Shown: piece by piece, positions 39,540 through 61,005 of the stretch
Layout of the letters: each line of letters opens with the position of its first letter
How positions within the stretch are numbered: the stretch's first letter is position 1
NCBI GenBank assembly: GCA_039654915.1
Contig: CM077599.1
Span: 30,131,501 to 30,195,500 of the forward strand
DNA length: 64,000 nucleotides
Source of the DNA: Aquilaria yunnanensis
Lineage: Eukaryota; Streptophyta; Magnoliopsida; Malvales; Thymelaeaceae
Direction of reading: 5' to 3'
The notes under the pieces: model-generated
What the model was told of the DNA's origin: nothing
The model's input: the letters and a program-made list of their open reading frames with translations, nothing else
Database searches by the model: none
Translations under genes and position numbers: made by a program

Positions 39540-41864
39540 ATGGCAAAACAAATGGAAGTATGTCTCACCAATATTGAGTCTAAGATAGAGAGCATGGCCG
39601 AGCAAATGAGACAATTAATGGAGCTAATCAAGGGGAAGGCAACCCAAATCCTCATTAAAGAGCCACAAGATCCCACTTATCCCTCAGGATTCACCCCACA
39701 ACGGATCTTAATTCATGAGAATCTTTTTCAGGATTCAGGTCTGTCTAATAGAATTCACCTAAGACATAATACGGCCTGTGAAGAAAAGAAGACACTGTTG
39801 AAGGAAGAAGGAGAATCTCAAAAGCTTGAGACAATAGAGAAGAGGTTTCGGGCCATTAAAGGAGGCACTGTATTTGGATCTCTCTCGGTGGACGATTTTT
39901 GCTTGGTGCTAGACGTTGTGATTCCCTCAGACTTTAAGGTGTTAGACTTTGTGAAATATGATGGAACAAGTTGCCCCATCACTCACATCACACTGTTTCT
40001 ATGAAAAATACAACCACTCACAAAAGACGAGAAGGTGTGGATGACACTTTTCCAAGAAACTCTTACAAAATCAGCATTACAGTGGTATCTAAGTCAAGGT
40101 CCAAGAAACATCAAAACATGGAATGACCTTGCTCAGACTTTCATCAACAACTACAAACATGTCATGGACTTGGCCCCGGATCGCCAAACTCTCCAGAATA
40201 CGAAAAATAAAAAGCAAGAAACCTTCAAGGAATACGTTCAAAGATGGAGGGACCTAGCCGCACAAGTTCAGCCACCCATGATGGAGAGAAAAATGGTAAC
40301 TTTATTTATCCAGACACTGAAGTACCCATACTACGACAAACTTATTGGCAATTCAGCAAACAATTTCTCAGACATTGTCATGTTTGGAGAACGAATTGAG
40401 CATGAGATTAGGACTGGGAAGATCACCGAATCCTTTAATGATGCCATGAAAAAAGGAGGACCATCCAGAAGAAAAGATGAGGAGGTACAACAAGTAGGAT
40501 GCGGAAGAGGGATTCCCCTCGTAGGTGCTTTGGCTACTGGGCCTCGCCTATCTTATCCTGCCAATAGGCCTAATCAATTACGGCCACCTGTTCTGACTCC
40601 TCCAGTGGCCGCACAAAGACAATGAGAAACATTTGCGCCAATTCCTATGACTTACACTAAGTTATATCCAAAGCTCATTGAAAGTTAACTTATTCACCCA
40701 ATTTCTACAAAGCAAATGGAACCCCCATATCCAAGGTGGTACGACCCCAACATAACTTGCCCATATCATGATGGCACTGTGGGCCATGGTATAGAAAATT
40801 GTGTAGCTTTGAAACGCATAGTCCAACAACTAATCGAGTTAAAGTGGCTGGACTTTTCTGATGAACCGAGCATCACTCACAACCCATTGCCGCCTCATCA
40901 AACTGGACCAATTAATATGATAGAGGAACACCAACTGATAAAGAAGTCAGTCAATGACATTACAACCCCTCTTAAGCATGTATACTCATGGCTTGTGAAA
41001 GAATGGGCCATCATTAGAAAGCCTTCTTTTAGGCATAAAGAAATCAAAGATGGAGAATTGTGTGATTTTCATGACAGTAAGGGTCAGTCCATCCAGGAAT
41101 GCTCAGAATTCTGGGAGAATCTACAAAGACTCATAGACTCATCCCAACTCAGCATTTTTATGTCAAGTAAAGATGTTGATACAAATGTAATCATTAAAGA
41201 ACGAGAAGTCATTGCTATGCCAAGACCACTAGTCATACCAATTTCAAAACCTACTGTCAAGCCTTTAAGGATTCAAGTCCTAACTTCATTCCCCTACAAG
41301 TCGGATAAGGCTGTTCCATGGAAGTATGATTACACCTCTAACATTATTTCGACTCCGTTAGAAGTTGGGGGCATGACTAGAGGTGGTCGATGTTACTTGC
41401 CAGAGCATATGGACAAGCTCCAACAAGACAAGAATATCACAGACCCAACAAATAGGCCTATTAGCACAAATACATCAGAAAAGCAAGGGGTGCATCGAGT
41501 GGTAACAGATGAACAAGCTGGCAAGTTTCTCAAACTCATAAAGCAAAGTGAGTATAGTATCGTGCAGCAGTTAAACCGTTTGCCAGCAAAGATTTCCATA
41601 CTCTCACTATTCTTAAGTTCTGACGCTCATCGAGAAACCCTCCTTAAAGTTTTGAACAAGGCCTATGTTGAGCAAGATATTTTTGTCAATAATTTTGATT
41701 ACCTTGTCAATAATTTTGATTACCTTGTCAACAACATCACTGCACAAAATCTCATCACATTCACTGATGACGAGATACCAGCAGAAGGAAGATGTCACTC
41801 TAAGGCTCTAAATATTTCGACTAAATACAAAGATCAAATTATGGCTAGAGTCCTTATTGACAAT
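39540..41864 (+). pseudogene. gag: Gag and start of protease of element B, interrupted by element A
   Basis: One frame from ATGGCAAAACAAATGGAAG through to IMARVLIDN, with nonsense changes at 40002-40004, 40623-40625 and about 40685 and no frameshift that I can find. Motifs: SALQWYLSQGPRNIKTWNDL (40071), YYDKLIGNSANNFSDIV (40330), knuckle-like CPYHDGTVGHGIENC (around 40760) and CDFHDSKGQSIQEC (around 41060). A 21-base in-frame duplication repeats NNFDYLV (about 41690-41735). The frame is cut in the protease active-site loop at 41864 by the insertion of A; coding resumes at 61006. Confidence 0.85.
41860..41864 (+). repeat. Target-site duplication of element A (left), ACAAT
   Basis: ACAAT directly before TGTAGCAACG. 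The second copy is at 61006-61010, directly after ...GTGTCAACA. It lies inside the codons for the D-N of the protease DNGS motif of B. Confidence 0.95.
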
Positions 41865-43803
41865 TGTAGCAACGTGATTTTTTAGGAGTCGCCACCAATA
41901 GGTTTACCTAGGTCGATTGGATACCTGTTATGGTCTGCAAGAGATTCTAAGATTCTGAGTCAGTTACGCTAAAATAACCTTATTAAAGCGCCCGAAAATT
42001 GGTACCATGGGGTTTAGTTTTTATCTTTTCCTAACTATTTATTTCTTGATCTAATCTTTGATTGAGAATAATTTCAATGAATTTTATTTAATTTAATTCT
42101 AAACCGTGAATCTTATCAGACCAACCGGATATGAAATTTTAAATCTTGATACTTGATTTTTTATAATAAATTTAATATTTCCGAACCATGGATTCTATCG
42201 AATCACCCGGATATAGAATTTAATGAAACTTTAATTTTTATTTATTATTGAATATTTTAATTAATTATTAATTCATATTATAAATTCTGCCGAATTATCC
42301 GAATATGGATTTTTTTAATTTTGGTAATTGATTATCATTTATTTTTTATTATAAATTTGATATTTTCGAAACCATAGATCCTATCGAATCAGCCGGATAG
42401 GGAATTTAATGAACTTTAATTTTTAATTTATTAGTAAATATTTAAGTAATTATCAATTCATATCATAAATTTTTACCAAATTATCCGAACATTGATTTTT
42501 TAATGATCTTAAAATTATTTTCCTTTTTATTATTTTTTTTAATTTTTTTTCTTTAAAAATAATTATCTAATCCATAGATCTAAAAAAAAATACTTATTCA
42601 AAATCATTGATTTTTATTGGATCATCTGGTTATGATTTTTTTAATTTATTTTAATAAATGGAATAGGAGGTTAAACTTTTTTATTTAAAGTAAATAATAA
42701 TAAAAGTAAATAAATCGACGTTCTAAATATCCAATAAAGCTAAATAACAGAAAAATAAAAGATGGGGGGCTTGGTTATAATAGAAATTATAAACTAAAAA
42801 AATGATAAATAAGGAAGTAAGATGGGGCTTTTGGCCAGTCATATAAAAAAAATGGTAAATAAAAAAAATAAGTAGGATTAACCGTCCACACAAAGAAATA
42901 ATAAGATGCAGAAATTAAATAAAAAGTAAATAAATAAAGAAGGTGAAGTGTTTGGACATCCACGTAAGAAAAATAAAATACAGAAAGCAAATAAAAAGTA
43001 AATAAATAAAGTAAATAATTAAATAAAGTGGGGCGCCTGGTCATCTACATAAAAGAATTAACAAAAATGCGATCGGACGGCTGGGCTTGGACGGGGGGAC
43101 AATGGCGACCCTAATGGTGGCGAGACAACGGCGTCGATCTGGGAGGTTGGCGACGGCGTGATAAAAACGGAAAAAAAAAAAAAAGAACGAGTTGTCTGGC
43201 AGCAGGGAATAAGAAAAGAAGTTTAGGATTTTTCTAGGTAAGGGAGGGGTGACCAGGGACTAAAGTTACAGTTTTTCCATTTTAAAGTTGGGGGCTCAAA
43301 TCTTGCTAATTTTGTATGTTTCTTTGCAGGTTTGGACCCTATTTATAGGCGAGGAGCATTGGATTCCTTCAATTTAAAAAAAAAATCAAAATTTAATGAA
43401 AAAACAGATTTAAAAGACAATTTGGTCAAAATTACAGTTTTAGTCCTTCAGCTTTCATTGACTATTGGTCTGGTCCCTCATTTTTCATGAAATTACTAAT
43501 TAACCCAAATTTGTCTGTTCTGTCAATTTGGCCCAAAACCTTGCGAATAATTACCAAATTTCCCGAAAACTTCCAGATTTCATCAGATTTTTCCCAAACT
43601 TCTCAATTTTGTCAGATTTGCCCTAAACTTCTCAATTTTGTCAATTTTTTTAGAATTTCCCTTTTTATATTTTACACACATATATATACATATATATAAT
43701 TTATTATTTTTAACTAACCCTTGCAAAACAAAATGCCCCCTAAACAAATTGTTATTATTAACAATTTTTTTTTATTCTAACCGGACGAAATTGGGTATCA
43801 ACA
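41865..43803 (-). mobile_element. 3' LTR of element A, shortened
   Basis: 1,939 bp, TGTAGCAACG...GGGTATCAACA. Relative to the 5' LTR (2,760 bp) it lacks about 0.8 kb. Similarity jumps from AATTAACAAAAATGC to GATCGGACGGCTGG near 43068, removing most of the GGCCATCCAC array. The first 100 bases differ from the 5' LTR at roughly one site in ten. A minus-strand TATAAATA is at 43340-43347. Confidence 0.9.
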
Positions 43804-43816
43804 GCTGCCCCCCTTT
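43804..43816 (-). other. Polypurine tract of element A
   Basis: AAAGGGGGGCAGC on the minus strand, directly before the LTR start TGTTGATACC. Confidence 0.8.
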
Positions 43817-45270
43817 GCATGCCTCATGAGACATGATGCATGCAAAGCCGTTACCAAATTTCGTCCGACCTTAGCTAGGCATTGAGAACCTGCTTGCCGC
43901 CTAAACCCTGAGGAGAAAAACCTTTTTCTCCTCCTTTTCGAGGTTAAGGAACTTTACTTATTATCTCTACGACAGGAACTCTCCTATCGTATAAGAAAAA
44001 TCAAAAGAGAAAAACTCTTTCATCCTTTTTGAGGTTAAGGAGCTTTCCTTAGTACTTCTACCACAGGAACTCTCCTATCGTCTAAGAAAAATGAAAGGAG
44101 AAAAACTCTTTCCTTCTTTTTGAGGTTAAGGAGCTTTTCTTAGTACCTCTAGGACAGGAACTCTCCTATCGTCTAAGAAAAATCAAAGGAGAAAAACTCT
44201 TTCCTGCTTTTTGAGGTTAAGGAGCTTTCCTTAGTACCTCTACGACAAGAACTCTCCTATCGTCTAAGAAAAATCAAAGGAGTTTGAGGTTAAGGAACTT
44301 TCCTTAGTACCTCTACGATAGGAACTCTCCTATCGTCTAAGAAAAATCAAAAGAGTTTGAGGTTAAGGAGCTTTCCTTAGCACCTCTATGACAGGAACCC
44401 TCCTATCGTTTAAGAAAAATAGACAAAGGAGAAAAACTCTTTCCTCCTTTTTGAGGTCCAGGAGCTTTCCTTAGTACCTCTATGATAGGAACCCTCCTAT
44501 CATTTAAGAAAAATCAAAGGAAAAAAACTCTTTCCTCTCTTTTTGAGGTTAAGGAATTTTCCTTATTACCTCTACGATAGGAACTCTCCTATCGTTTGAG
44601 AAAAATAGACAAAGGAGAAAAAGTCTTTCCTCCTTATTACTTGATCTAGGAACTTTCCTAGACTTTTCACAATATGAACTCTCATATTGCTTTCAATCTT
44701 AAGAAAAAAAACATTTTTCTTCTTTGTGAGGTGAAGGAACTTTCCTTAGTACCTCAAGCAAAAATTTCTACGATGGCAATTGGAGTTGGAATAATTTCTT
44801 CGGAGATGTGAATTTTCATAATAGGTGAGTGCAAAAACTTGAAATTCCATGAAATGAGTGAATCTTGAAAGTGTGAAATTCCATAAAATGGCAATAAAAT
44901 TGACAAATTATGTAAAGGGAATGGATGTTTGGAATCAATATCCAGGTTTCATCTAATATTTTCTTTAGAAAATATAAATTCCCTTGTGAAATATGTCATC
45001 CAAATAGGGTTGAAGCTTAGTTACCCGAAAATGCTATGACTAACATACCTAATAGGATGCATCTCAAGAGTAAAATTACTCTTTACTCAACCATTCCAAA
45101 CTAAAGGCTTTGTCCAATGGTTTTAATATCAGCATGAACAAAACTATCCTAAAAAGATGAAGAAGAAAGAAGAAATTCCCTGAAAAAAAAAAATGAAAAA
45201 CGAAAAAATTCTGTTAATAAAACTAAAGGACAAGATAAACAGATTCACAAGTCCGATCGCTTTTTTTTTT
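43817..45270 (-). repeat. 3'-untranslated region of A with hairpin array
   Basis: Homologous to 23208-25298 in the opposite orientation. 43900-44760 holds tandem units with short inverted repeats such as CTAGGAACTTTCCTAG, TAAGGAACTTTCCTTA and GATAGGAACTCTCCTATC. The remainder is the non-repetitive part next to the LOG gene. Confidence 0.8.
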
Positions 45271-45380
45271 TTACAGTGCTTCATCATAAGACAACAAACA
45301 GGGTAAATGACATTTATGGGATGGAACTGGTCGGCTAAGATTGTCGTGTCCAGTCTATCTTAATCACTGCTGGATCTGGT

Positions 45381-45944
45381 TCAGGAACAAAAAGCTTGCA
45401 TTTCATTTAACAATTTTCCAGCAGTTAATGCGGATATTAGGATTCGTCGTGCCTCCACTGAGATAAATTTCTTTTGCACAGCGTAATCCATAAAAGATAT
45501 CAGACCTGCAAAGAAATTGTTTACATTTAATAGCCCAATGAGTTTCTGGTGCAAATTAAATTGGGCCATGGAAGCAATTTGGAAAATTTCTCACAATGTG
45601 CTAAAACCTCCTGTTAGAGCAATAAAAGCATCAGAGTTAAAAAGCATTTGTAACAAACGCTCTTGTAAATTTTTAACCACTAATTCTTTTCCAATCGTGC
45701 CCCCAGAAATCAACTTTAAAGGTGCAGGGATAATACCCAAAACTTGACTTCCTCCTAGAGATGTTGCTGATGCTACACCTCCTATTAATCCGACACTACC
45801 TCCCTCGTAAACTAAATATATTTTTCGCTCAGCTAGTACTTTACCCAAATAGTTGGCTGCTCTGAAATACTCTTTATCTTTTCCAGGAAAAGCCCCACAA
45901 AATACACAAATACTTCGCAATTTATGAGTTGAGGTTCTCTCCAT
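45381..45944 (-). pseudogene. LOG-like: LONELY GUY (LOG) cytokinin-activating enzyme copy, intron-less, one internal stop
   Basis: LOG enzymes release active cytokinin bases from the nucleoside 5'-monophosphates in the plant cytosol. The frame reads SICVFCGAFPGKDKEYF, LVYEGGSVGLIGG (GGS at residues 48-50), VLGIIP and DAFIALTGGFSTL, then a TGA as codon 118, then EIFQIASM, KLIGLLNVNNFF, SFMDYAVQKKFIS and ISALTAGKLL. The order and spacing are those of a near-full-length LOG (about 187 codons; family about 200-230). The catalytic-loop consensus PGGxGTxxE reads TGGFSTL-stop-E, so Pro and the second Gly are changed and the stop falls next to the Glu. The substrate-site Arg appears kept (R96). No introns, unlike plant LOG genes as I know them, so it is probably a retrocopy captured by A. 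A TATAAAT motif lies about 45 bases upstream. Confidence 0.85.
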
Positions 45945-45985
45945 TCCTATCCTTAATCCTATGAGAAATGAAAAAAAGGGGATGC

Positions 45986-45992
45986 ATTTATA
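45986..45992 (-). promoter_or_regulatory. TATA motif upstream of LOG copy
   Basis: TATAAAT on the minus strand. The bases further upstream on that strand ('gataatgcaataattac...aggagtagg' on +) align with those next to the TATA motif at 46900-46907, so the two genes share a promoter-like module. Confidence 0.5.
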
Positions 45993-46225
45993 GAGATGAA
46001 AAGATAATGCAATAATTACATTTGCAGGAGTAGGTAAATCATTGTCACAGCTTGCATGTACAGAAGTTATGACTGTGGCTCACGTCAATTACATTTACAG
46101 GAGTAGGTACATTATTGTCAGAAGAAAAGGAAAATTTTCAAAAATGACAGCTAGCATGTATGGTAGTTGTGACTGTGGCTCACATCTCCCACCGATTTTA
46201 CGTCTAGTAATGGCTTCAACGCCTT

Positions 46226-46779
46226 CTATGAGTCGGGGATTTGCTTCCCATCCAGTTTTCTTTTAAACTGGCAAACAAGGTCATTTAAAGTTAGATTCCC
46301 AAAACTGTAACGGTCTTGTTCTTTGTGGAAAGTCCTCCATAAACCAATAATTTCACGTTGTACTATTCCACAAGAATGCGTTTCAAGAGTCAATTGGATA
46401 TCATTCAAAGATTCCTTACGCAGGCTATTCTTAATGAATTTTCTTTTCTCTTCTCTTCACGATTTTTGGAGGTCATCCCTAGAGAACAACATTTGGTATC
46501 ACAATTCCATTGTCCACATTTGTGACAGACACCTAGCCTTTTTGCTCTTCACTTTTTAGCATAAGCGCTTTTACCTAAGCCAGGAATACGGGGCACAAAT
46601 GCATCTGAAACTTCACCAGCCAAACGGACTTTAGCTTCAATTAACTACCGCGCATTGTCAGGAATGCCTTTATGCATAAAAAATCTGACTCTTTCACATC
46701 TAGCTTGGTAAATCATTTTAAGAACATTTATTGGGAGGGAAGGAAAGTATTTTCGCAGGGCAGAAATAGTAGAATCCAT
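46226..46779 (-). pseudogene. Second, decayed copy of the cysteine-rich NABP-like gene
   Basis: Tandem duplicate of 47044-47592, about 815 bp away, covering the same start (ATG at 46779) and the same end (KLDGKQIPDS). It has a nonsense change at the Trp-Leu-Ile-Glu-Ala position, a TGA inside the basic run before the cysteines, and a frame change further on. It is therefore non-functional while its neighbour stays open. The cysteine pattern is still visible. Confidence 0.75.
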
Positions 46780-46899
46780 TAATGAGAGAAAAAAAATTGA
46801 GAGGAGAGAGGAAGAAATTAGTTATTGTAGGAAACTGAAATAACCAACTTGAGAGTCACGGAGTACCGTATCCACTACTTAACCGGAAAGAAAAACACG

Positions 46900-46907
46900 T
46901 ATTTATA
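46900..46907 (-). promoter_or_regulatory. TATA motif upstream of decayed NABP-like copy
   Basis: TATAAATA on the minus strand, about 120 bases upstream of the ATG at 46779. The transcribed leader-like segment ('gagagtcacggagta' on +) is repeated upstream of the open copy near 47666. Confidence 0.5.
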
Positions 46908-47043
46908 GCGATGAAAGGATAACGTATTAATTACGCTTAGAGGAGTACGTACCTTATTGTCAAAAGCAAATATGACAACTTGTATGTACAATGATTGTGA
47001 CATTTTCCACTGGTTCTACGTCCAGTAACGGCTTCAACGCCTT

Positions 47044-47592
47044 CTATGAGTCAGGGATTTGCTTCCCATCCAGTTTTCTTACAAACTGGCAAACATGGTC
47101 TTTTAAAGTCAGATTCCTGGGACTATAACACTCTCGTTCTTCGTGAAAAATACTCCATAAAAAAAGGAGTTCGCATTGCACTGATCCACAAGAATGCGCC
47201 TCAAGAGTCAATTGGATATCATCCAAAGAATCCTTACTCAGGCCATTCTTGATGAATTGTATTTTATGTTCTTGATTATCGGAGATCATTCCTAAAGAAT
47301 GACATTTTGTATCACAAGTCCATCGACCACATTTGTGACAGACTTGTAACCTTTTTGCTCTTCGCTTTTTGGCATAAGAGCTTTTGCTTGAGGCAGGCAT
47401 GTAAGACACAAATGTATCTAGGACTTCACCTGCTAGACGAACCTTAGCTTCAATTAACCACCGCATATCTTCAGGGATTCTTTTATACATCAAAACTCTT
47501 AATCGTTCACACCGAACTTGGTAAATCCTTTTAAGAACATTCATTGGGAGGGAAGGAAAGTATTTTCGTAGGGCAGAAAGAGTAGGATCCAT
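47044..47592 (-). CDS. Cysteine-rich protein resembling betaflexivirus nucleic-acid-binding proteins, 182 aa
   Basis: The only unbroken gene of element A. It has a long, probably helical N-terminal part (residues 1-65), a basic run KKRRAKR (75-81), then C-x2-C-x4-C-x3-C (C85, C88, C93, C97), and a C-terminal part without recognisable motifs. A basic run followed directly by a compact Cys cluster, with an S-x-Y/F-A-K-K/R-R lead-in, is the signature I know from the small cysteine-rich proteins of plant betaflexiviruses (carla- and vitivirus types), several of which suppress RNA silencing. At 182 aa it is longer than those (about 90-140), the extra length lying at both ends. The viral link is inferred from pattern memory, not from a search. 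The start ATG is shared with the decayed copy. It could also be an unrelated host zinc-binding protein. Confidence 0.55.
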   Translation of the reverse strand: MDPTLSALRKYFPSLPMNVLKRIYQVRCERLRVLMYKRIPEDMRWLIEAKVRLAGEVLDTFVSYMPASSKSSYAKKRRAKRLQVCHKCGRWTCDTKCHSLGMISDNQEHKIQFIKNGLSKDSLDDIQLTLEAHSCGSVQCELLFLWSIFHEERECYSPRNLTLKDHVCQFVRKLDGKQIPDS

Positions 47593-47705
47593 TTTTTAGA
47601 AGGAAATAAAAGAAAGGAGGGAGAAAGAAATCAGTTATTTTGGGCAACTGAGACAACCGACTTGAGAGTCACGGAGTATCGTATCCACCACTTAACCGGA
47701 AAGAA

Positions 47706-48774
47706 TGGATCCTACTTTTTTGACAATATTTTGATGTCTGCCTTATCTTTGACCATAGAGGTTTCTTATCCCGTCCTTACAAGTGTAGCTTTGATTATTG
47801 AATCCATTGCCAGCTTTCGCCAAATTGTCAACGACAATATTTTTTATGTCTATCTTATCCTTGACCATCATGTTGAATTCTTGACGCAATTTGCTCCAGC
47901 GTATACTTATCAATGTTGTAATCATGCCGCGGATATGTTTTCCGCTTGATCCCTGTTATGCAAAAGCCATGCATGCATAATGTGAAATGCATGAATGTAC
48001 GGCGTGTGTAACTGATGGCTCTTTTTCTTTTTTTTTTTATGATTTGTATGGATCTAGTTCTTTATGTCTTGGCTTTACTGGATCCTTTTTGTGATTGCCT
48101 TCTTGGACTACCATTGAATCTCTTTATGCTTCTCAGCCCTTGTCCATTGCCTCAAAAGCCCAATCTTTTTCGAAAGCCCTTTCAAAGAAAATTTTCTTGA
48201 CTTGTTCTTGAATTTTGGCCTCAACTTCCTTAACATTTGCCCGCCTCATACTTTTTGTCTCTTTGGATAGTCGTCCCTGTTGAAACATTCGTGAGTATGC
48301 TTCCTTCTTGTTGATATAATAATGTTCCTATTCTCAATTATGAGACTTTTGAAGCGATCATCTAGGCAACCACCAAAGCCGTCTCCCAAAGATTTGTTAC
48401 TCCTTTTTCCCTGTTAGCAAATGTTTTGTGCCGTTCGTAAAGCAGGACCTCGATCTTACCTGTTTTAATTCATAAAGCTTATCAAAGTAATCTACGATCT
48501 TTTCTTTTTCTGAGTTTTAATTATTACTACCCTTCCTAAAAAGTCACAATTTATTGCACATTAGAGGCTAGCAAAAATGTGAGATTTGAAGAAAAATGGC
48601 TAGAGAGAATTGGTTTTTCATTTATGAGTAAGGGAATATAAAAGTCTTGGGTATAGATGAAGAATAATAAAGGTCTGAGAAAAGAACGCTCTCTTTGACA
48701 ACTTTGATCGAACAAGCTCTGGCAACCTTGTATCCACTTCTTCTCTTTTGTCCGAAAATTTCATCATCATGCAA
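47706..48774 (-). other. Region between integrase and accessory genes, partly coding-like, unrecognised
   Basis: No intact frame. On the minus strand about 48315-48133 encodes some 60 charged residues without a stop (around NKKEAYSRMFQQGRLSKETK), and 47925-47743 another 60, but neither matches a domain I know. It may be the remains of one more accessory gene, or a relic of the sequence that brought in the cassette. Confidence 0.4.
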
Positions 48775-51700
48775 AGTACTTCTTCACTAAATCTGAATTT
48801 ACTAGTTTTGGTAGCTCTCGTCCATCCATTTTTGTCAGAATTAGGGCGCCTCTTGAAAAGGCTTTCTTCACCACATATGGTCCATTATAGTTTGGTGTTC
48901 ATTTCCCTCTAAAATCATGCTAAATGGGTAGAATTTTCTTGAGCACTATGTCACCTTTATGAAATTTTCATGGGTGAACCTTCTTATTGTAAGCGCGGAT
49001 CATCCTCCTTTGATAAAGTTGCCTATGATAGAGGGCAATCATTCTCCTCTCATCGATTAGGTTCAATTGCTCATATCTAGCCCTGACCCATTCTGCCTCT
49101 TCCAATTGGGTATCCATTAATACCCTCAACGAAGGAATCTCAACTTTAATGGGTAATACAGCCTCCATACCATATACCAAAGAAAAAGGTGTTGCTCCAG
49201 TAAAAGTACAAATAGAAGTTCTGTAAGCATGTAGTGCGAAAGGTAACATTTCATGCCAGTCTTTATAAGTGACAATCATTTTTTCAATAATCCTTTTGAT
49301 ATTTTTATTGACCGCTTTTACTGCACCATTCATCATTGGTCGATAAGGTGCTGAATTGTGATGCTTGATCTTGAACTGTCGGCACAAAGTCTGCATCATC
49401 TCATTATTCAAGTTTGTGGCATTGTTTGAGATGATACGCTCTGGTAACCCGTACCGACAAATGATTTCTTTCTTGATGAATCGGCATACCGCCTTTTGAG
49501 TTACACTTGCATAAGACACAGCTTCTATCCATTTAGTGAAGTAGTCAATTGCCACTAGAATGAATTTATGACCATTAGAAGCCTTGGGGTTAATTGCTCC
49601 AATGACATCTATTCCCCACATAGCGAAAGGCAAAGGTATTGCTGTCACATATTTGGCACTTATGACATTTTCTTACGTGATTGATGCAATCATTTCTAAT
49701 GTGAGCCAATAGTGGCCCGCCCTTATTATTTGTCTTGCCATGGTATGACCACTAGTGTGTGCTCCACACATTCCAGCATGAACTTCTTCCATGATCTTTC
49801 GTGCTTCATGAGCATCTACATAGCGAAATAGCATCAAGTATGGGGTTTTCTTATAAAGTACGTCTAGGTTTAAAAGGAAACCCATTGACAACCTTCGAAA
49901 AAATTTCTTGTCATTTTCTGATGCATCTGGTGGATATACTCGTTCTTGGAGGTATTTCTTGATATCATGGTATCAAGGTTTTCCATCCAATTCCTCCTCA
50001 ACACTCATGCAATAGGCTGGGGAATCTAGTACTTTGATTTCAAAAACAGGAGTATGTTCAGGGTCATTTATCTTGTACATGGCAGCTAAAGTAGCTAAGG
50101 CATTTGGAATTTGATTATCTTCCCTTGGAAGATGATGGAAACTTATACTTTTGAACCTTCCTGCCAAGTCTAGTATGAGTCTTTGGTAAGGGATCAATTT
50201 TGAATCCCTTGTCTCCCAATCTCCATTTATTTGATATATGACCAATGTAGAATCCCCATAAACTCGGAGATCTCGTACTTTCAGTCTCAGTGCCATTTGG
50301 AGTCCTATAGCACATGCCTCATATTCTACTATATTGTTGGTACAAGGAAATGTAATTTTCGCTGTGAGGGGGAACTGTTCTACACTTGGAGAGATGAGTA
50401 TAGCTCCAATCCCTTGTCCTAAAGCATTAGATGCTCCATCGAACGTCATTTTCCATGTTTCATCATCTTTAGAGACTTCCTGTCCTATTGTCATTATATC
50501 TCCATCAAGAAAGTCCATCTTCATTGGCTTATAATCGTCCAAAGCTCTATCAGCCAAATATTCAGCAATCGCACTCCTTTTTACGGCCTTCTGAGTGACA
50601 TATTGTATGTCGTATTCAGACAACAACATTTGCCACTTTGCGATCCTTCCTGATAAAGCGGGTTTCTCAAAGATGTACTTGATGAGATCGGTCTTGGAGA
50701 TGAGTAATGTGGTATTGTTGAGCATGTAATGTCGTAGTCGGCTTGCTACCCATGCAAGGGCACAACAAGACTTTTCTATTACTGAGTATTTCACCTCATA
50801 TGTGGTAAACTTCTTGCTCAAGTAGTAAATTCCATGTTCTTTCTTGCCTGTCTCATCGCGTTGACCCAATATAGATCCTAATGAAGAATCCTGTATTGAT
50901 AAGTATAGAATCAACGGTTCTCCAGGTCGGGGTGGTACCAAAACTGGTGGATTTGATAGGTATTGCTTAATTTTCTCAAATGCCTCTTAGCATTCGTTAT
51001 TCCACTCAATCGGATTGTTCTTCTTTAGTGATTTGAAAAGAGGTTTACACTTGGACATCAATTGTGATATGAATCTTGCTATAAAGTTGATTCTGCCAAA
51101 AAATCTTCATACTTCTTTTTGAGTCTTCGGAGGTTGCATTTCTTGAATTGCCTTGACTTTACTTGGGTCAACTCGAATCCCATCTTTGCTTACCATGAAA
51201 CCCAATAACTTGCCTGAAGAGGCTCCAAAAGTACATTTGGCAGGATTCAATTTTAGTTAATACCTGTGAAGTCTATCGCATAGTTTTCTTAGTACATTTA
51301 GATGCCTCCCAGCAGTGGAGGATTTGGCAATCATGTCATCTACATACACTTCAATTTCTTTATGCATCATGTCATGAAATAAGGCGACCATGGCTCTTTG
51401 ATAAGTAGCACCAGCATTTTTCAACCCAAAAGGCATCACCTTATAGTAGAAGGTACCCCAAAGGGTAACAAAAGCAGTTTTTATTATATCATCTGGATCG
51501 AGTTTGATTTGATTGTACCCAGAAAAGCCATCCATGAAAGAAAAGTAGGAGTTTCCTGCGGTGTTATCCACCAACATATCAATGTGAAGAAGTGGGAAGT
51601 TATCTTTAGAGCTGGCCTCGTTCAAGGACCGGTAGTCCTGACAAACTCTTAGCTTCCCACTCTCTTTCTTTTCAACTGGAACTATGTTGACAACCCATTA

Positions 51701-52157
51701 TGTATATTCAGCAACTTCAAGGAATCCCGCATCCCATAGCTTTCGAATATCATCTTTTACTCTCAAGATCAGATTCGGCTTCAATCTTCGTAGCTTCTGT
51801 CTGACAGGCTTCGCCCCAGGCTTCAATGGTATTTTGTGTAGCACTATGTCTGAGCTTAAGCCGGGCATATCTTGGTATGGCCAAGCAAATACATCCACAT
51901 ATTCCCTCAGTAAGTGTATTAGTTCTTCTTTCTCTTCAAGAGGAAATAGAGTGCCAATCTTAACTTCTTTTACATCCTGATTGTCTCCCAAGTTGAATGT
52001 CTCAGTTGGTTCCTGACTTGTTGCTCTTTCTTTTTCATCTTGCTCGATCATGTTTAATAACTCAGGAGATATTTGAAGATCTTCGTCATCCGAGTCAGCA
52101 GTGTTTACAGGATTATCAAAGTTCATTCTTTCATTGTCATCAAAGAGAGTTTCAGGT
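48775..52157 (-). pseudogene. pol: Pol of element A: RT, RNase H, second RNase H, integrase
   Basis: After the intron the frame reads PETLFDDNERMNFDNPV and runs leftward. RT: GKLRVCQDYRSLNEASSKDN, FSGYNQIKLDPDD, FGLKNAGATYQRAM, YVDD at 51335-51346. RNase H: AWVASRLRHYMLNNTTLLIS. Second RNase H: MTFDGASNALGQGIGAILIS (near 50455). Integrase: VHAGMCGAH zinc residues, WGIDVIGAI, then SNNATNLNN and GAVKAVNKN, where D and E of the D-D-E triad are expected, so two catalytic residues are lost. The C-terminal integrase module continues to about 48775 (YNGPYVVKKAFSRGALIL). Nonsense changes lie near 51699, 51257, 50986 and 49973. An indel region at about 49650-49700 puts the CHKC zinc motif out of frame. 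Confidence 0.85.
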
Positions 52158-52348
52158 CTGCATTAGCCAAAGAGAAAAGAGAGGAGAAAATGGCGAGAAT
52201 GAGATGAATGCAAATTGGTGCTTTATTTATAATGTACATAAATCATAACTTTATTGGAATGAAAAGCAATAACTAAAAGGTTCACTTAAGCAAAGACTAC
52301 ACCCTATTGATTGAACCTTTCTTTAGGAGGTTTTTACTATTAGATTAC
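52158..52348 (-). other. Intron between protease and RT, element A
   Basis: Donor GTAATCTAAT. The acceptor is a pyrimidine tract followed by GGCTAATGCAG. Length is 191 bases. It aligns with the intron of C. A one-base loss next to the donor and a TAG two bases before it mean this copy would no longer read through. Confidence 0.7.
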
Positions 52349-55300
52349 TCTAAAAGCTCTCGATTACAACAGGCAGTTCTATCGCCTCCCAATTGTTCAG
52401 CACATCTCGTGGGCTATAGGGTTGAATGAGCTCCTCATTTTCGGGTGAATCATTGATTATTGCCTGAATCGAAAGATGTTCAAAAGACTTGTTGACGCTG
52501 ATGGTCAGCGCGCCGTCATTGTCATTTCTCGGAATCAAGCCACCACTCACGAATGTTTCAGTGATTTCCGGGATATCCAGATTTCTTCCCTCTAGGGGAT
52601 GACCCGTTAGTCGTGCAATCTTCTTTTCTCTCTGTTTAGCTATCGTCTTCATTTTATCTTGCCTTGTCGGTGTGAAACCTAGGCCGTATTTCCCTTCGTT
52701 TGGAGAGATTTTTAATGGTTCTGAGATTCCTTGCAAATCTTGTCCCAGACCTAACCCCGGTGAGTATTCTCCTTTCATTATGAATTTGGTGAGCATGCGA
52801 CTTGCTTTAGAGATGCTAAGCATGGGTTCTTTTCCATATTCACTGACATAGGTAGCATTAACAATTTCAAAAGACCTGAAAGAGCAATTAGGCACATCTT
52901 CATTGACCTCGACATACTGAACATCCGCAGGTCTAGATAGCAGAATGTCTTCTTCAGCAAAGACTGTTATTAATTTTCCTCCAATGATGAATTTCAATTT
53001 TTGATGTAATGAAGAGGGAATTGCCCCGGCCATATAAATCCATGGTCTTCCCAACAGACAACTATAAGAAGGGTTAATGTCCATAACTTGGAATGTGATA
53101 TGGAAGACATAGGGGATGATCCCTATCGGCAGCTTTATTTCTCCAACAACATCTCTCCTTGTCCTATCAAATGCTCGAACGATGATATGACTGTTGTTGA
53201 GGTATGATGGGTCTATACCAAGCTTATGTAAGGTTTCAAGTGGCATTACATTTAGAGCTGACCCATTGTCGATAAGGACTCTAGCCATAATTCGATCTTT
53301 GTATTTAGTTGAAATATGTAGAGCCTTAGAGTGACCTCTTCCATCTGCTGGTATCTCATCATCAGTGAATGTGATGAGATTCTATGCCGTGATGTTGTTG
53401 ATGAGGTGGTCAAAATTATCCACAGAAATATCTTGCTCAACATGGGCCTTGTTCAAGACTTTAAGGAGGATTTCTCGATGAGTGTCAGAACTTAAGAGTA
53501 GTGAGAGTATGGAAATCTTTGCTGGCATGCGGTTTAACTGCTGCACGATACTATACTCACTTTGCTTTATGAGTTTGAGAAACTCGCCAGCTTATTCATC
53601 TGTTACCACTCGAGGCACCCCTTGCTCTTCTGATGTATTTGTGCTGATAGGCCCGTTTGTTGGGTCTAAGATATTCTTGTCTTGTTGGAGCTTGTCCATC
53701 TGCTCCGATGAGTAACATCGACCACTTCTAGTCATGCCCCCAACCTCTAACGGAGTTGATGTAATATTGGAGGTGTAATCATACTTCCACGGAACAGCCT
53801 TATCTGATTTGTAGGGGAATGGAGTCGGGACTTGAATCATTAAAGGCTTGACAGTAAGTTTTGAAATTGGCATGACTAGTGGTCTTGGCACAGCATTGAC
53901 TTCTCGCTCTTTTATGATTACATTTACATCAACATATTTATTTGCAATAAAAATGCTGAGTTGGAATGAGTCTATAAGTCTCTGTAGATTCTCATGGAAT
54001 TCTGAGCATTCCTAGATGGAATGATCTTTACTGTCATGAAAATCACACCATTCTTCATCTTTGATTTCCTTATGTCCAAGAGAAGGCTTTCCAATGATGA
54101 CCCCTTCTTTCACAAGCCATGAGTATACATGCTTAAGAGGGGTTGTAATGTCGTTGACTGACTTCTTCATCAGTCGATGTTCCTTTATCATATTAACTGA
54201 TCTAGTTTGATGAGGCGGCAATGGGTTGTGAGTGATGCTCGATTCATCGGAAAAGTCCAACCACTTTGAATCGATTAATTGTTGGACTATGCGTTTCAAA
54301 GCTATGCAGTTTTCTAGACCATGGCCCACAACGCCATCATGATATGGGCAAGTTACGTTGGGGTCATACCACCTTGGAAATGGGGGTTCCATTGGCTTTG
54401 TAGGAATTGGGCAGATCAGTTGACTTTGAATGAGCTTTGGATATAACTCAGTGTAAGTAATAGGAATTGGGGAAAATATTTCTCTTTGTCTTTGTACAGG
54501 CACTGGAGGGGTCAAAACGGGTGGCCGTAATTGATTAGGCCTGTTGGGAGGATAATTATTGGGCCTATTGGTAGGATAAGATAGGTGAGGCCCAGTAGCC
54601 ACAGTACCTACGAGGGGAATCCCTCTTCCACGTCCTATTTATTGTACTTCCTCATCCTTTCTTCTGGATAGTCCTCCTCTTTTCATGGCATCATTAAAGA
54701 ATTCGGTGATCTTCCCAGTCCTAATCCCATCCTCAATTCTTTCTCCAGACATGACAATGTCTGAGAAATTGGTTGCCGAATTGCCAATAAGTTTGTCATA
54801 CTATGGGTACTTCAGTGTCTGGAAAAATAAAGTCGCCATTTCTCTCTCCATCATGGGTGGCTGGACTTGTACGACTAAGTCCCTCCATCTTTGGGCGTAC
54901 TCCTTGAAGGTTTCTTGCTTTTTCTTTTCCATATTATGGAGAGTTTGGCGATCCGGGGCCAAATCCATGACATGTTTGTAGTTGTTGATGAAAGCCTGAG
55001 TGAGGTCATTCCATGTTTTGATGTTTCTTGGACATTGACTTAGATACCACTGTAGTGCTGATTTTTTAAGACTTTCTTGGGAAAGTGCTATCCACACCTT
55101 TTCGTCTTTTGTGAACGGTTGTAGCTTTTTTAGGAAAAGTGTTATATGAGTGACAGGGCAACTTGTCCCATCATATTTTACAAAGTTTGGCACCTTAAAG
55201 TCTGAGGGAATCACAACATTTGGCACCAAGCAAAGATCATCCACCGAGAGAGATCCGAATACAGTGCCTCCTTCAATAGCTCGAAGCGTCTTCTCTATTG

Positions 55301-55592
55301 TTTCAAGATTTTGAGCATCATCTTCTTCTTTTGTTAGTGTCCTCCTTCCTTCGTAGATGGAATTGTGCCTAAAGTGAAAACCGTCGGATGGACCTGAGTC
55401 TTGAAGAGGCATTTCTTGAATCGGGGCCCATTGCGGGGTGAACCCTGGAGGGTAAATGGGATCCTGCGGGTCTTTGACGGGGGTTTGGACCGTTTTCCCC
55501 TTGATCAGGTCCATCAACAGCCTCATCTGTTCGGCCATACTTTCAATCTTTGGCTCAATGTCGGTGAGACGTCCTTCCGTTTGTTTCGCCAT
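52349..55592 (-). pseudogene. gag-pro: Gag-protease-G-patch polyprotein of element A
   Basis: A single frame leftward from MAKQTEGRLTDIEPKIESMA. Order: N-terminal coiled region; capsid-like part (SALQWYLSQCPRNIKTWNDL, VMDLAPDRQTLHNMEKKKQE); knuckle-like CPYHDGVVGHGLENC and a second CDFHDSKDHSI-stop-EC; aspartic protease from 53288 (MARVLIDNGSALNVMPLETL, CLLGRPWIYMAGAIPSS); G-patch (GEYSPGLGLGQDLQG and GKYGLGFTPT); C-terminal NNWEAIELPVVIESF. About six nonsense changes (near 54799, 54640, 54012, 53592, 53385 and 52350) and no frameshift found. Several stops equal CAG or CAA codons in B, consistent with C-to-T decay. Confidence 0.85.
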
Positions 55593-55880
55593 GAGTCTTG
55601 CTTGTAGTCGAGTTGAATATGAATGTCGAGTACCAATCTTTCACCCCTTTTTAAAAGTGGGAATTCTTTTATTAGACTTTGTGTATGAATTGGTAAATGA
55701 TGCATGAAGCACATGCTGTTTTTATTAATGTGATTGAGTTGAATGGCCACTATCGTAACACTTTCAAACTCTAATGACTGTCTATGCCTAAACATTTAGC
55801 GTAACACTAAATCACCAAAGGAATCCTAAAACCAAATAACGAAAGCCATGGTGGTCCGGCCCACTTTATTACATCAAAGA

Positions 55881-57589
55881 CTAAAAGAACTTTCTGAGCT
55901 GGTCATATTGCTTGCGGGCCTTCTTGATGTAGCTAATCATCTTCTGCTGTCCCGAGAATGAGTTAAGCCAAGTACCAACAATTATGTTATTGGCTTCTTC
56001 ACCCATCTCCTTTGTGACCCAAGTGACCTTCCGTACTTCTTCTACGAAGTCTTCTACTTGACATGCAGACCGGATATACTCTCGTTTCCAGTTCTCTTTC
56101 TCCCATTCATTCTTATCGCAATTCTCAACTAACTGCTTAATGATGGCCTGTTTGTCTTCCAGCTTCCCTCGCAAGAGTAGGTTTTCGTTCCTCAGTGCTT
56201 CCAGTTCAGAGTTTTTCTCATCTATCTTGACTCGTATCTTCTTCATCTTGCCTCTTTCTTCTTTAAGCTCTTCCTTGAGATCCCTTTTAGTAGCGCAGCT
56301 AGGTCGGTCTGATGGGAGAATAGCTTCCCTTCGATTTTGCCTCGATTCTGGATACCTTTTTGAAGACACTAAGGTTCCAGGTTTTACTAGGTAAACTTTC
56401 TTCCATGCTATTTCCATTCCAGAAATGAGACGGTGGCATTGTGGGTCGTCATAAGAGAACTCGAGCTCACATAGTCGATGTGTCATTGGTACAAACTGTT
56501 GGGACCCAAACTGCCTACGAACTAAGGCTAGGGCGTAGCTTGTTCCTCCCCATATTCCAAGAAGAGGAACCCATGGAAGCTTGCCACATCGATAGAGTAC
56601 TGGTTTTGCTGAGATAAAGGGTGCCCTCCATGTAATCTGAGAGTCTAGCAAGCTTTTAAGGAAATCCCTCCACTCTTCTTTGCTCCTTTTTTCTATGCAG
56701 ACACTGTCTATGAAAGCTTTGATTGGAATAGAATATTGGAAGAAACGATGACCAAATTCCCTCTTTAGGCATGGTAGATGACTCTTAATATAGATGTGTA
56801 ACAACGGCACACAACCGATGAACCGTCCTCCATTACGTCTACAAAAGTTGAGGGAGCAAATGGTTTCAGCCAGAATAGCAGGAAGAGGGCTCATGTGTTT
56901 TCTCTGCATATGATCCAATAGCTTGATCACCCCATCATCAATGTGTGATAATGCCCTTGGAAATATTACGAGCCCATAGATTGCCAATGCAAATGCCTTC
57001 CTCTTTTGTGATTTCGATGTCAGCATCTCCATAAGTTGTTTGAGAGTGCTCCATGCCATGCTTTTTCCACCCTTCTTAGTAGCTCGCTGCTTGAGATCCG
57101 TAACTTGCATGTTCAGGAAACGAGATAGGCATCATAGCACATCACTCTTCTGATCGGGAGAATACGCCTCAGTTGGGAAGTCAAGAGGAATGTTCAACAG
57201 AACACTGTACTCTTTGATAGTCGGAGTCAAGTCCATCTTGTTGATCGAAAAGCAACAATAATATGGATCCCAGAATGATATCAGCGCTCGAAACAAAGCC
57301 TCGTCGATCTTGATGTCTAACAGATAAGCAATGTGCCCGAATTTGCTATCGAAGATCTCTCTTTCAGCAGAGGACCAAGCTTTCCATATCTGTGATAACT
57401 CTTTCACGAAGTTCTGTTCAAGTCGAAAATGAACCTGGCTTTTCAAATCAATCTCACTTCCAGGTGAAAGTCAATCTCCATGTACTAACTGTGACTCCTC
57501 AGAGAAGTCCATGGCTTCTGGCTACCTTCTTCTATAGTAGATGCCCAAGTCTCGTTGCAATCAGTCGAAAGTAGGTCAAGAATGTCCAT
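55881..57589 (-). pseudogene. ORF1 of element A: DUF7745 plus coiled coil, nearly intact
   Basis: The best-preserved ORF1 here. The start is ATGGACATTCTTGACCTACT. A one-base loss near 57527 and a TGA a few codons later break the first 50 codons. From 57446 the frame is open except TGA at 57132-57134. DUF7745: NKMDLTPTIKEYSVLLNIPL, AFALAIYGLVIFPRALSHID, ETICSLNFCRRNGGRFIGC, LPWVPLLGIWGGTSYALALV. The C-terminal third is a charged coiled coil (KRDLKEELKEERGKMKKI, EALRNENLLLRGKLEDKQ) ending YDQLRKFF. Ogre elements are known for such a 5' ORF; its job is unknown. Coiled coil plus position suggests an RNA- or particle-associated role, as inference only. Confidence 0.85.
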
Positions 57590-58225
57590 GGTAATGGAGG
57601 TTGCGCTAAATGCTTCCTATAGTGCTATGCATGCAAAGAGAACAACAACTTGAAGAGAGTTAGTAACATAGTAGAATAATATATGAGCTACTGTGAACAT
57701 TATAAAGAGAAAAAATATACTTAACAAGGCATAAAGTGGTTAGTTTGACAAGAGAGTTAGCAATAAACAAGCTGTTTTTTGTTATGGAAGTCCTAATGGA
57801 TAGATCTATGGCCGCTATATGCGTAGGTGGTTTTTTGAAAAGAAAGGTTATGGGTTGGTTCTCGAATCCCTTTTACTAAGTCCTATCAGACTAGAAAAGG
57901 CCCACACCCATGAGGGTTATGTGAGGAAGGATTAATTCGAGTCATAGTTTTCATGGTCCCATGCGGTGACTACTGTCACACTCAGGCAACACTACTGACT
58001 ACTATGGATTAGAGAAAGCACGGAAACTATTGTCTCACACGACTAGCCTAACTCGGGTATTTTGCAGAACTTGGTTGGAGTGAGTATGGATATTAAGCTC
58101 ATTATGCATGCCGAGGTGTGTGCGTGTAACAATCTAAAAAATACTCAACACATCAAATCAGTATGTCAAGAAATAAACAAGAAAGAAAAAGAGCAAAACT
58201 AAATCCTTTTTATGGCTAGACTCTT

Positions 58226-58242
58226 TCCCAGTGGAGTCGCCA
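58226..58242 (-). other. Primer-binding site of element A
   Basis: TGGCGACTCCACTGGGA on the minus strand, three bases inside the LTR. It is the least mutated example of the four. Confidence 0.75.
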
Positions 58243-59219
58243 AGCTGTAGCAACGTGATTTTTTAGAAGTTGCCACTAATCGGTTTACCTAGGGCGATTG
58301 GATATCTGTTATGGTCTGTGAGAGATTCTAAGATCGTGAGTCGGTTACGCTAAAATAACCTTATTAAAGCGCCCGGAAATTGGAACCATGGGGTTTAGTT
58401 TTTATCTTTTCCTAACTATTTATTTCTCGATCTAATCTTTGATTGAGAATAATTTTAATGAATTTTATTTAATTTAATTCCAAACCGTGAATCTTATTAG
58501 ACCAATTGGATATGGAATTTTAAATCTTGATACTTGATTTTTTATAATAATTTTATAATAAATTTAATATTTCCAAACTATGGATTCTATTGAATTACCC
58601 GGATATGGAATTTAATGAAAATTTAATTTTTATTTATTATTGAATATTTTATTTAATTATTAATCCATATCATAAATTCTGTCAAATTATATGAATATGG
58701 ATTTTTTTAACTTTGGTACTTGATTATTATTCATTTTTTATTATAAATTTGATATTTTCTAAACCATAGATCCTATCGAATCACCCGGATAGGGAATTTA
58801 ATGAACTTTAATTTTTAATTTATTACTAAATATTTAAGTAATTATCAATTCATATCATAAATTTTTACCAGATTATCCAAACATGAATTTTTTAATGGTC
58901 TTAATATTATTTTCCTTTTTATTATTTTTTAAATTTTTTTTTCTTTCTTTAAAAGTAATTATCTAATCCATAGATCTAAAAAAAAAATACTTATTCAAAA
59001 CCATTGATTTTTATTGGATCATTTGGTTATGATTTTTTTAATTTATTTTAATAAATGGAATAGGAGGCTAAACTTTTTTATTTAAATAAAATAATAATAA
59101 AAGTAAATAAATCGACGTTCTAAATATCCAATAAAGCTAAATAATGGAAAAATAAAAGATGGAGGGCTTGGTTATAATAGAAATTATAAACTAAAAAAAT
59201 GATAAATAAGGAAGTAAGA

Positions 59220-60010
59220 TGGGGCTTTTGGCTAGCCATATAAAAAAAATGGTAAATAAAAAAAAAGTAAGATTAACCGTCCACACAAAGAAATAATAAG
59301 ATGTAGAAATTAAATAAAAAGTAAATAAATAAAGAATGTGGAGTGTTTGGCCATCCACGTAAAAAAAATAAAACGCAGAAAGTAAATAAAAAGTAAATAA
59401 ATAAATTAAATAAATAAATAAAGTGGGGCGCCTGGCCATCCATATAAAAGAATTAACAAAAATGCAAAAAATAAATAAATAAATAAATAAGCTGGGGTGT
59501 TTGGCCGTCCATATAAAAGAACTCATAAAAAATACAGAAAATAAATAAATAAAAAATAAAGTAGGGTTTTTGGCCATCCACATAAAAGTAGGAGGTACAA
59601 CCTTCCATAAAAAAAAAATAAATAACGTGAGGCACTTGGCCATCCACATAAAAGTAGGAGGTACAACCTTCCATAAAAAAAAAGAAATAAAAATAAATAA
59701 AGTGGGGCACTTAGCCATCCACATAAAAAATAAAAAAAGTGCAGAAATAAAAAAGCAAATGAGTAAAGAAAGTGGGGCGTTTTGGCCATCCACGTAAAAT
59801 AAAAATAAAGTACATAAATTAAATTAAATAAATAAATAAATAAATTAGGGCGTTTTGGCAATCCACGTAAAAGAATTAACAAAAATAAAGAGAAATAAAT
59901 AAAATAAAAAAATAAGGTGGAGCATTTTAGGCATCCACGTAAAAAAATAAAGTGCAGAAATTAAATAAATAAAATAAATAAAGTAATGCGCTTGGTCATC
60001 CATGTAAAAA
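59220..60010 (-). repeat. LTR minisatellite with conserved GC core (element A, 5' LTR)
   Basis: More than ten copies of a GGGGCGYYTGGCCATCCAC core separated by (TAAA)n-rich spacers. Only about three or four remain in the 3' LTR (42830-43060). Confidence 0.8.
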
Positions 60011-60539
60011 GTAGGAGGTATAACCTTCCATAAAAAAATAACAATAACAAACAGAAAGAATAGAAAAGAGAAAGAAAAGAAAGTTGTTGTTAATAATTAG
60101 TTCTGTAAAAGAAAGAAAGTTAGTGACTAAGATGAATGAATATAGGAAGATGAAGGATTAGAAGAGAGTTATACCAAAAAAATATAATTTTTGATTCCAG
60201 CGGGTCGGGTACGATTTTGGAAAACGGGTTCGTCTTCGATTCTCCATTCTCCAGCGATGAACGAGCGATCAGACAGCTGGGCTTGGACGGGGGGACAACG
60301 GCGACCCTGATGGTGGCGGGACAACGGCATCTGGCTAGGAGGCTGGCGACGGCATGATAAAAACGGAAAAAAAAATGAAAAAAGAACGAGTTGTCCGGTA
60401 GTAGGGAATAGGAAAAGAAGTTTAGGATTTTTCTGGGTAAGGGAGGAGTGACCAGGGACTAAAGCTACCGTTTTTCCTTTCTAAAGTTGGGAGCTCAAAT
60501 CTTTCTAATTTCCTCGATTTCTTTGCAGGTTTGGACCTC

Positions 60540-60547
60540 TATTTATA
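60540..60547 (-). promoter_or_regulatory. TATA box of element A 5' LTR
   Basis: TATAAATA on the minus strand, at the position conserved in LTRs C, D and the 3' LTR of A. Confidence 0.65.
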
Positions 60548-61005
60548 AGGGAGGAGCATTGGATTCCTTCAATTAATTAAAAATTTAAAATTTAATAAAA
60601 AAACAGATTTAAAACATAATTTGGTCAAAATTACAGTTTTAGTCCTTCAGCTTTCATTGACTACTGGTTTGGTCACTGGTTTTTCATGAAATTACTGATT
60701 GACCCAAATTTGTCTGTTATGTCAATTTGGCCCAAAACCTTGTGAATAATTACCAAATTTCCCTAGAACTTCCAGATTTCGTCAGATTTTTCCCAAACTT
60801 CTCAATTTTTTCAGATTTACCCTAAACTTCTCAATTTTGTCAATTTTTTTAAAATTCCCCCTTTTTATATTTTACACATATATATATACATATATATCAT
60901 TTATTATTTTTAACTAACCCTTACAAAACAAAATGCCCCCTAAACTAAATGTTATTATTAACAAAAAAAAAATTTATTCTAATTGGACGAAATTGGGTGT
61001 CAACA

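Follow-up and report, generated by a model that had tools for sequence, protein, structure and literature searches.

A conserved accessory cassette of viral-type NABP and LOG genes in Ogre-like Ty3/gypsy retrotransposons of Aquilaria yunnanensis

A 64,000 nt stretch of Aquilaria yunnanensis DNA (hereafter the window, to which coordinates refer unless a locus is named), taken from an assembly of 842 Mb in 345 contigs, contains a complete Ogre-like retrotransposon bounded by long terminal repeats (LTRs), which harbours genes for NABP, a viral-type cysteine-rich protein, and for LOG, an enzyme of the cytokinin riboside 5′-monophosphate phosphoribohydrolase type, the kind by which this growth hormone is activated. 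These genes form a conserved, selected accessory cassette of an Ogre-like Ty3/gypsy family. The best overall explanation, to which we assign a probability of roughly 0.6, is that this cassette is put to host manipulation; on protein kinship alone, a role as a kit for silencing suppression and growth promotion is plausible.

Within the window, the cassette spans 47592–45317, between integrase and the 3′ LTR, and lies on the same strand as the gag and pol open reading frames (ORFs), giving a coding order of DUF7745 ORF, gag, protease region, reverse transcriptase, two RNase H domains, integrase, NABP1, NABP2 and LOG. The preliminary description of this DNA proposed a three-gene cassette here, and its order and strand stand, although the coding stretch is slightly longer than first drawn and both NABP2 and LOG are broken (Table 1). 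Its two tandem NABP copies are correct for the window, but three are present in 13 of 20 sampled loci. NABP1 exceeds the Pfam gathering scores of both Viral_NABP (25.2 versus 23) and Carla_C4 (22.3 versus 20.9). From the disrupted LOG gene, a 117-aa ORF (45591–45944, minus strand) matches Lysine_decarbox (3.1e-6, just over the gathering score) and TIGR00730 (1.3e-19), yet reaches only 70.6 bits against the cut-off of 96.35 for the latter, the ORF being partial.

Recurrence of the cassette across the genome

A search of the genome with the LOG profile (PF03641) returned at least 150 matches from 3310 first-look candidates. Internal stops are absent from 145 of the 150 listed (and present in 5/150), with most forming a single open frame of ~230–250 codons. 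A second LOG query yielded at least 150 further matches, overlapping the first list, by eye, at about five places; these two near-disjoint lists thus indicate well over 200 LOG copies in the genome. The NABP search gave at least 150 matches out of 8198 candidates. The identical scores of many of these matches point to a burst of recent copying. Chance, or stray host genes, as the source of the cassette is ruled out by this recurrence.

Two sets of loci form the basis of the counts below, with L039–L042 lying outside all of them. The LOG-chosen set comprises 20 of the 150 listed LOG loci, at ~10 kb each, and the NABP-chosen set comprises 8 of the 150 listed NABP loci, chosen via NABP3 and all young (sharing no less than 95 % NABP3 identity with the query). 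NABP is found in 19/20 LOG-chosen loci, with three copies in 13, two in 3, one in 3 and none in 1, fragments included. Conversely, each of the eight NABP-chosen loci holds a full-length, stop-free LOG with its PGGxGTxxE motif. The expectation that the same cassette would be met in many elements is therefore borne out, whichever gene is used to choose the loci.

Selection on the cassette genes

Pairwise ratios of nonsynonymous to synonymous change (dN/dS, by NG86) were taken from intact ORFs only, retaining 20/26 LOG, 9/22 NABP1, 13/20 NABP2 and 15/21 NABP3 matches; stop-bearing or partial rows were excluded, and the pieces of one frameshifted copy count as separate matches. Within the LOG-chosen set, the ratio for LOG is 0.62 at dS < 0.03 and 0.25–0.29 above this, that for NABP2 is 0.96 and then 0.29–0.39, and that for NABP3 is 1.05 and then 0.27–0.38. 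NABP1 stays at 0.19–0.34 throughout, including 0.30 for the single pair at dS < 0.03. The drop in ratio with divergence is the pattern of constrained source copies and drifting daughter copies.

Among the eight NABP-chosen loci, LOG displays 40 synonymous and 13 nonsynonymous changes (pN/pS 0.10) and NABP3 displays 27 and 14, respectively (pN/pS 0.16), of which only the LOG value is independent because NABP3 was itself the selection criterion. The pN/pS sets further exclude L028 for LOG and, for each of NABP1–3, a single row that differed in length. Binomial p values for such counts presuppose that the changes are independent. In the same loci the spacer differs by 0.055, versus 0.025 for LOG and 0.027 for NABP3, and LOG dN/dS between the eight NABP-chosen and the 20 intact LOG-chosen copies is 0.19–0.32. 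Purifying selection, which the preliminary description set as support for the cassette, is thus evident in the NABP-chosen loci.

A contrasting view would hold that the cassette genes are passive passengers, captured once and copied without function. The many copies with broken cassette genes, that of the window included, would fit this, as would the ratios of the youngest LOG, NABP2 and NABP3 pairs (though not that of the single NABP1 pair). It is disfavoured, and we consider it very improbable, in view of the low pN/pS of LOG and NABP3 in the eight loci, the 50–60 % identity that NABP relatives elsewhere mostly retain over near-full length, and the single LOG clade that spans several eudicot families.

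A common TATA-box module

The pattern TTTCAT(N1–3)CTATAAA occurs up to 160 bp upstream of cassette starts, with 16 matches for 18 NABP2 starts, 14 for 15 NABP3, 14 for 21 LOG and none for 21 NABP1. Beyond these 44 matches, it is absent from the 262,020 bases of the 20 loci plus the window, read on both strands. LOG and two of the NABPs hence have one common module that is missing from the other sequence read. The simpler TATA[AT]A precedes 29/29 LOG (at −48 in most of those listed), 14/14 NABP3 (mostly near −51) and 16/16 NABP2 (−87 to −127) genes by no more than 250 bp, against a background of 0.30–0.35 from single-base shuffles. To judge from these putative promoters, LOG, NABP2 and NABP3 probably have transcripts other than the genomic RNA. 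In L009, CTGACGTAAG occurs in the 250 bases that precede LOG, and we take it to resemble the as-1 motif known from the 35S promoter.

Cassette-bearing copies without pol

Family reverse transcriptase, RNase H and integrase are retained in only two of the 20 LOG-chosen loci (L010 and L012), and L028 has a distant reverse transcriptase (41 % identity). One pol-less region, a noncoding filler, is common to 16 of the 20, L009 among them; many of these derivatives have a protease remnant, and their LOG is mostly open. In the ~10 kb fetched per locus, a protease remnant is present in 10/20 and a gag stretch in 2/20; sequence further upstream of pol-less loci was covered for L009 alone, and gag may survive further 5′ in others.

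One pol-less element, represented by L030 together with L009, was followed to its 5′ LTR, and has no ORF of at least 120 codons between this LTR and NABP1. Low-complexity ORFs are confined to the presumed LTR part (its inner end being unmapped), and a 33-residue protease remnant is present. The cassette is the sole substantial coding content of this element, the LTR ends of which agree at 98.3 % over 407 columns. A pol-bearing relative, L029 together with L012, possesses a DUF7745 ORF, a gag–protease ORF and an ORF for reverse transcriptase, RNase H and integrase, followed by the cassette. A broader proposal, which we put forward tentatively and hold to be rather less probable than not, is that of a eudicot retrotransposon lineage with a self-promoted host-reprogramming cassette, made up of a virus-type silencing suppressor or transcription factor and a cytokinin-activating enzyme, and with pol-less satellites, at least one of them gag-less, which would keep these host-directed genes and spread by being moved in trans by relatives. 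L009 (C8:17462500-17472400) and 15 other sampled pol-less loci are candidate trans-mobilised satellites.

NABP and its viral relatives

An alignment of 48 of 120 listed NABP proteins with the window ORF gives 49 sequences, of which 44 match Viral_NABP and 45 match Carla_C4 at E 0.001. Zinc-finger-like cysteines C85, C88, C93 and C97 lie beside a basic KKRRAK stretch; C88 and C93 are invariant, and C85 and C97 are each present in at least 90 % of the 49. The carlavirus cysteine-rich proteins, such as p12 of chrysanthemum virus B, belong to the same Pfam families and display the same combination of basic stretch and zinc-finger-like cysteines (PMC7588395, PMC12172455). The p12 protein is described as both activating transcription and suppressing silencing (PMC7588395), and as inducing hyperplasia (PMC12172455). 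The viral gene resides in an RNA virus genome and the present one in an LTR element, where conservation extends well past the stretch that matches the viral families. This, together with how widespread element NABPs are, would also suit a reversed direction of transfer, in which plant viruses acquired the gene from such elements; we regard that as improbable.

Among the best 120 of 125 relatives, those named come from Xanthoceras, Populus, Acer, Citrus, Orobanche and Parasponia. Three gene models of Citrus × changshan-huyou hold both Carla_C4 and the LOG-type domain PF18306, and several NABP and LOG matches elsewhere are on contigs of equal size (e.g. 8723, 4511 and 2128), which suggests NABP–LOG linkage in other sources. 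In the parasitic plant Orobanche minor, the gene model P0085 fuses NABP to a stretch that is, by eye, protease-like and of retroelement type; its NABP would reflect either horizontal spread or old inheritance. A profile search of the PDB with NABP gave a single chance-level match (E 0.92), PHROGs gave none, and an IMG/VR scan for NABP relatives produced pattern matches in 78 stretches, none of which was confirmed.

The LOG clade and its origin

The closest solved structure to the element LOG is Arabidopsis At2g37210 (E 3.4e-53), and the LOG of L001 scores 156.4 bits against TIGR00730 (cut-off 96.35). The PGGxGTxxE motif is kept in 20/20 and 8/8 intact ORFs checked in the two sets. Against the NF058542 equivalog the element LOG, which alone among plant LOGs was scored, reaches 107.1 bits, under the cut-off of 300. 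The lysine beside a conserved arginine is kept in all 14 host and both bacterial LOGs aligned, and in 2/26 element-type LOGs; it is replaced in the other 24/26, with the arginine itself kept in 25/26. Given this change, the activity of the element LOG may differ from that of host LOG.

In a tree of 42 hand-picked rows (including 20 LOG relatives and 12 host-type LOGs, each drawn from 120 that were listed, two from Arabidopsis and two from bacteria; some rows are long), element-type LOGs form one clade (97/93), apart from the 14 host LOGs (97/98), which sample the LOG1/3 and LOG8 types and leave out LOGL10-type host genes. The clade has members from this genome, Xanthoceras, Reevesia, Populus, Paulownia, Diplodiscus and Parasponia. 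From clade membership and copy number, rather than from their DNA, we infer that the named proteins lie in elements.

The preliminary description held the LOG gene to be intronless, and this is upheld: element LOG is uninterrupted, whereas six host LOG loci (L043–L048), resembling Arabidopsis LOG3 or LOG8, are in several pieces, as by introns. This difference argues for the capture of a spliced LOG mRNA, an event that likely predates the sampled eudicot families. As to the donor, none of L043–L048 stands out; stretchwise identity is 27–69 %, with low values across introns.

A Populus gene named LOGL10 by NCBI falls in the element clade, and host-type LOG matches in this genome are few (7). Both would be in keeping with domestication, whereby the cassette, or single copies of it, serves the host and is selected through the plant. 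The copies that show constraint are, however, scattered over many chromosomes instead of occupying one locus, and we judge domestication to be the least probable of the readings weighed here.

Proposed mechanism and its weighing

Under the favoured reading of host manipulation, a large Ogre-like family carries up to three tandem NABP paralogues and an intronless LOG 3′ of integrase, the cassette having been put together long ago from a LOG probably derived from spliced mRNA and an NABP of common ancestry with the zinc-finger 'nucleic acid binding' proteins of carla- and related viruses. LOG, NABP2 and NABP3 would be expressed from their own TATA modules, apart from the genomic RNA. Selection keeps the cassette, which is also retained by pol-less copies, and these would have to be moved in trans. 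NABP may oppose small-RNA silencing and/or work as a nuclear activator, and LOG may raise active cytokinin locally, such that cells with active elements would stay silencing-poor and dividing.

Alternatively, the cassette may serve the element's own cycle only, with NABP as an RNA chaperone, packaging factor or Tat/Rev-like activator, and LOG as a non-hormone nucleotide enzyme. The basic, cysteine-rich nature of NABP, the change beside the conserved arginine in most element-type LOGs and the keeping of the cassette in pol-less copies dependent on help in trans would all agree with such a role. Retention of PGGxGTxxE in every intact ORF checked, and TATA modules that are separate from the LTR, speak against it. 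On balance we deem it unlikely, albeit the strongest competitor to host manipulation.

Several points weigh against host manipulation by a selected cassette. The youngest pairs (dS < 0.03) are nearer neutral for LOG, NABP2 and NABP3, and LOG pN/pS is weaker (0.43) among 19 LOG-chosen copies. The loci were drawn from the best-scoring matches listed, so that old decayed copies are under-represented. The match of NABP to viruses covers one domain with a moderate score, and its AlphaFold model is poor (pLDDT 60, pTM 0.31) and unable to test the fold. The lysine replacement noted above counts likewise, as does the conjectural nature of any benefit of cytokinin to a retrotransposon. With regard to the promoters, the module pattern was drawn up with these sequences already in view, and the copies, being of common descent, represent few independent events; NABP1, moreover, lacks the module and has TATA[AT]A within 250 bp in only 3/19 cases.

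Transposons are commonly viewed as parasites hiding from their host. If the favoured reading is true, some of them manipulate the physiology of the host cell, using a plant-virus-type protein and a hormone enzyme under their own promoters, and the role of extra ORFs in plant LTR elements becomes a question for simple assays. Element LOGs can also mislead annotation, as with the LOGL10-named Populus gene that groups with element genes in the tree.

Comparison with known elements

The Ogre (Tat) features of the family are an extra RNase H between RNase H and integrase (RT_RNaseH then RVT_3, with integrase downstream), in which the RVT_3 domain is read as the additional RNase H, an extra ORF 5′ of gag (DUF7745), and separate gag–protease and reverse transcriptase–RNase H–integrase ORFs a few hundred bp apart, the last feature being present in the relative L029 (6361–8988; 9185 onward). 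ORF 2–2716 of L012 spans reverse transcriptase, RNase H and integrase. An extra ORF upstream of gag is a mark of Ogre.

The likeness to Ogre covers the second RNase H before integrase, the split ORFs, the extra ORF, long LTRs and tandem repeats (PMC6317226); Retand also has an additional RNase H (PMC6317226). A plant mobile domain is reported in 57 % of Ogre elements (PMC6317226), as opposed to the DUF7745 in the extra 5′ ORF of the window element, and the present family adds a multi-gene sense cassette on the 3′ side. That survey scored extra ORFs from 250 codons up, such that ORFs of 182 and 209 aa would escape it (PMC6317226).

LOG in plant Gypsy elements is already known from the literature: a LOG ('YgdH') domain occurs in Gypsy consensuses of two Citrus species and Populus (PMC9289625, citing Steinbauerova 2011). 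These share the Ty3/gypsy setting and the LOG-type domain, and relatives from Citrus and Populus were found here too, but the section of that account on these elements does not mention an NABP partner, separate promoters, a test for selection or forms lacking pol (PMC9289625). Our literature search brought up no account of the NABP partner, of the common promoter module or of cassette elements lacking pol, subscription papers, Steinbauerova 2011 included, lying mostly outside it. In orchids, Gypsy elements that hold a gene for an AlkB-type demethylase likewise combine the Tat lineage with an extra enzyme gene, although the enzyme is a different one and no viral-type partner is described in the text available (PMC9289625). 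Grande gene23 and Retand TRP28 are accessory genes between pol and the 3′ LTR, as here (PMC7264820, PMC11963269), and gene23 has its own promoter, setting a precedent for a self-promoted accessory gene (PMC7264820). Both are antisense to gag–pol (PMC7264820, PMC11963269), whereas the present cassette is in sense orientation and comprises several genes with one shared module.

The carrier element and its surroundings

The LTRs and target-site duplication establish the carrier as a bounded element, and the view of it as Ogre-like, advanced in the preliminary description, is supported by its dual RNase H and extra 5′ ORF (Table 1). Over two blocks that could be aligned (1222 and 742 columns), and leaving gaps uncounted, the LTRs show 142 mismatches, from which it follows that this copy is not young.

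Table 1. Features of the Ogre-like element and its cassette in the 64,000 nt window
Feature	Position	Strand	Remarks
Complete Ogre-like LTR element	41865..61005	minus	19,141 bp; LTR pair and 5-bp target-site duplication on both sides
Target-site duplication ACAAT	41860-41864 and 61006-61010		Flanks of the Ogre-like element
5′ LTR	58246..61005	minus	Versus other LTR: 92.5 % (1222 columns), 89.8 % (742 columns)
Candidate primer binding site TGGCGACTCCACTGGG	58227..58242	minus	Adjoins 5′ LTR; likely, by place
DUF7745 ORF, 5′ of gag	55881..57110	minus	Pfam 1.2e-31
gag ORF	54801..55592	minus	Retrotrans_gag 2.4e-10
Protease-region ORF, G-patch-like stretch	52350..53288	minus	Weak: G-patch 3.9e-4 (below cut-off), Asp_protease_2 0.18
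Reverse transcriptase, partial ORF	51257..51625	minus	RVT_1 2.7e-16
Tandem pair of RNase H domains	49973..50941	minus	RT_RNaseH 1.3e-22, RVT_3 3.1e-18
Integrase ORF	48968..49648	minus	rve 6.8e-12
NABP1, viral-type cysteine-rich protein gene	47044..47592	minus	Intact 182-aa ORF; Viral_NABP 1.8e-5, Carla_C4 1.3e-4
TATA-box module of NABP2	46902..46916	minus	Upstream of NABP2; sequence pattern
NABP2, second tandem copy	46229..46779	minus	Broken: two in-frame stops, one frame change
TATA-box module of LOG	45987..46001	minus	Upstream of LOG; sequence pattern
LOG gene, intronless	45317..45944	minus	Broken: in-frame stop in catalytic motif, frame change near 3′ end
73/91-bp tandem repeats with short palindromes, 5′ of 3′ LTR	43929..44614	minus	Similar arrays in L009
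3′ LTR	41865..43803	minus	Paired with 5′ LTR

The element sits, as a nested insertion, inside the protease region of a plus-strand element of the same family (ORFs 40716–41885 and 60949–61398), the two halves of which, 36500–41864 and 61006–64000, are split by it. An older plus-strand element of this family, with a broken RNase H, occupies 10905–25176; tblastn finds no NABP or LOG match in it, similarity being limited to sequence downstream of LOG (23222–23585). The minus strand also holds, at 29924–35421, a Ty3/gypsy element of a distinct kind; it has two large open frames (555 and 849 aa), and its integrase is 36 % identical to that of the cassette-bearing element.

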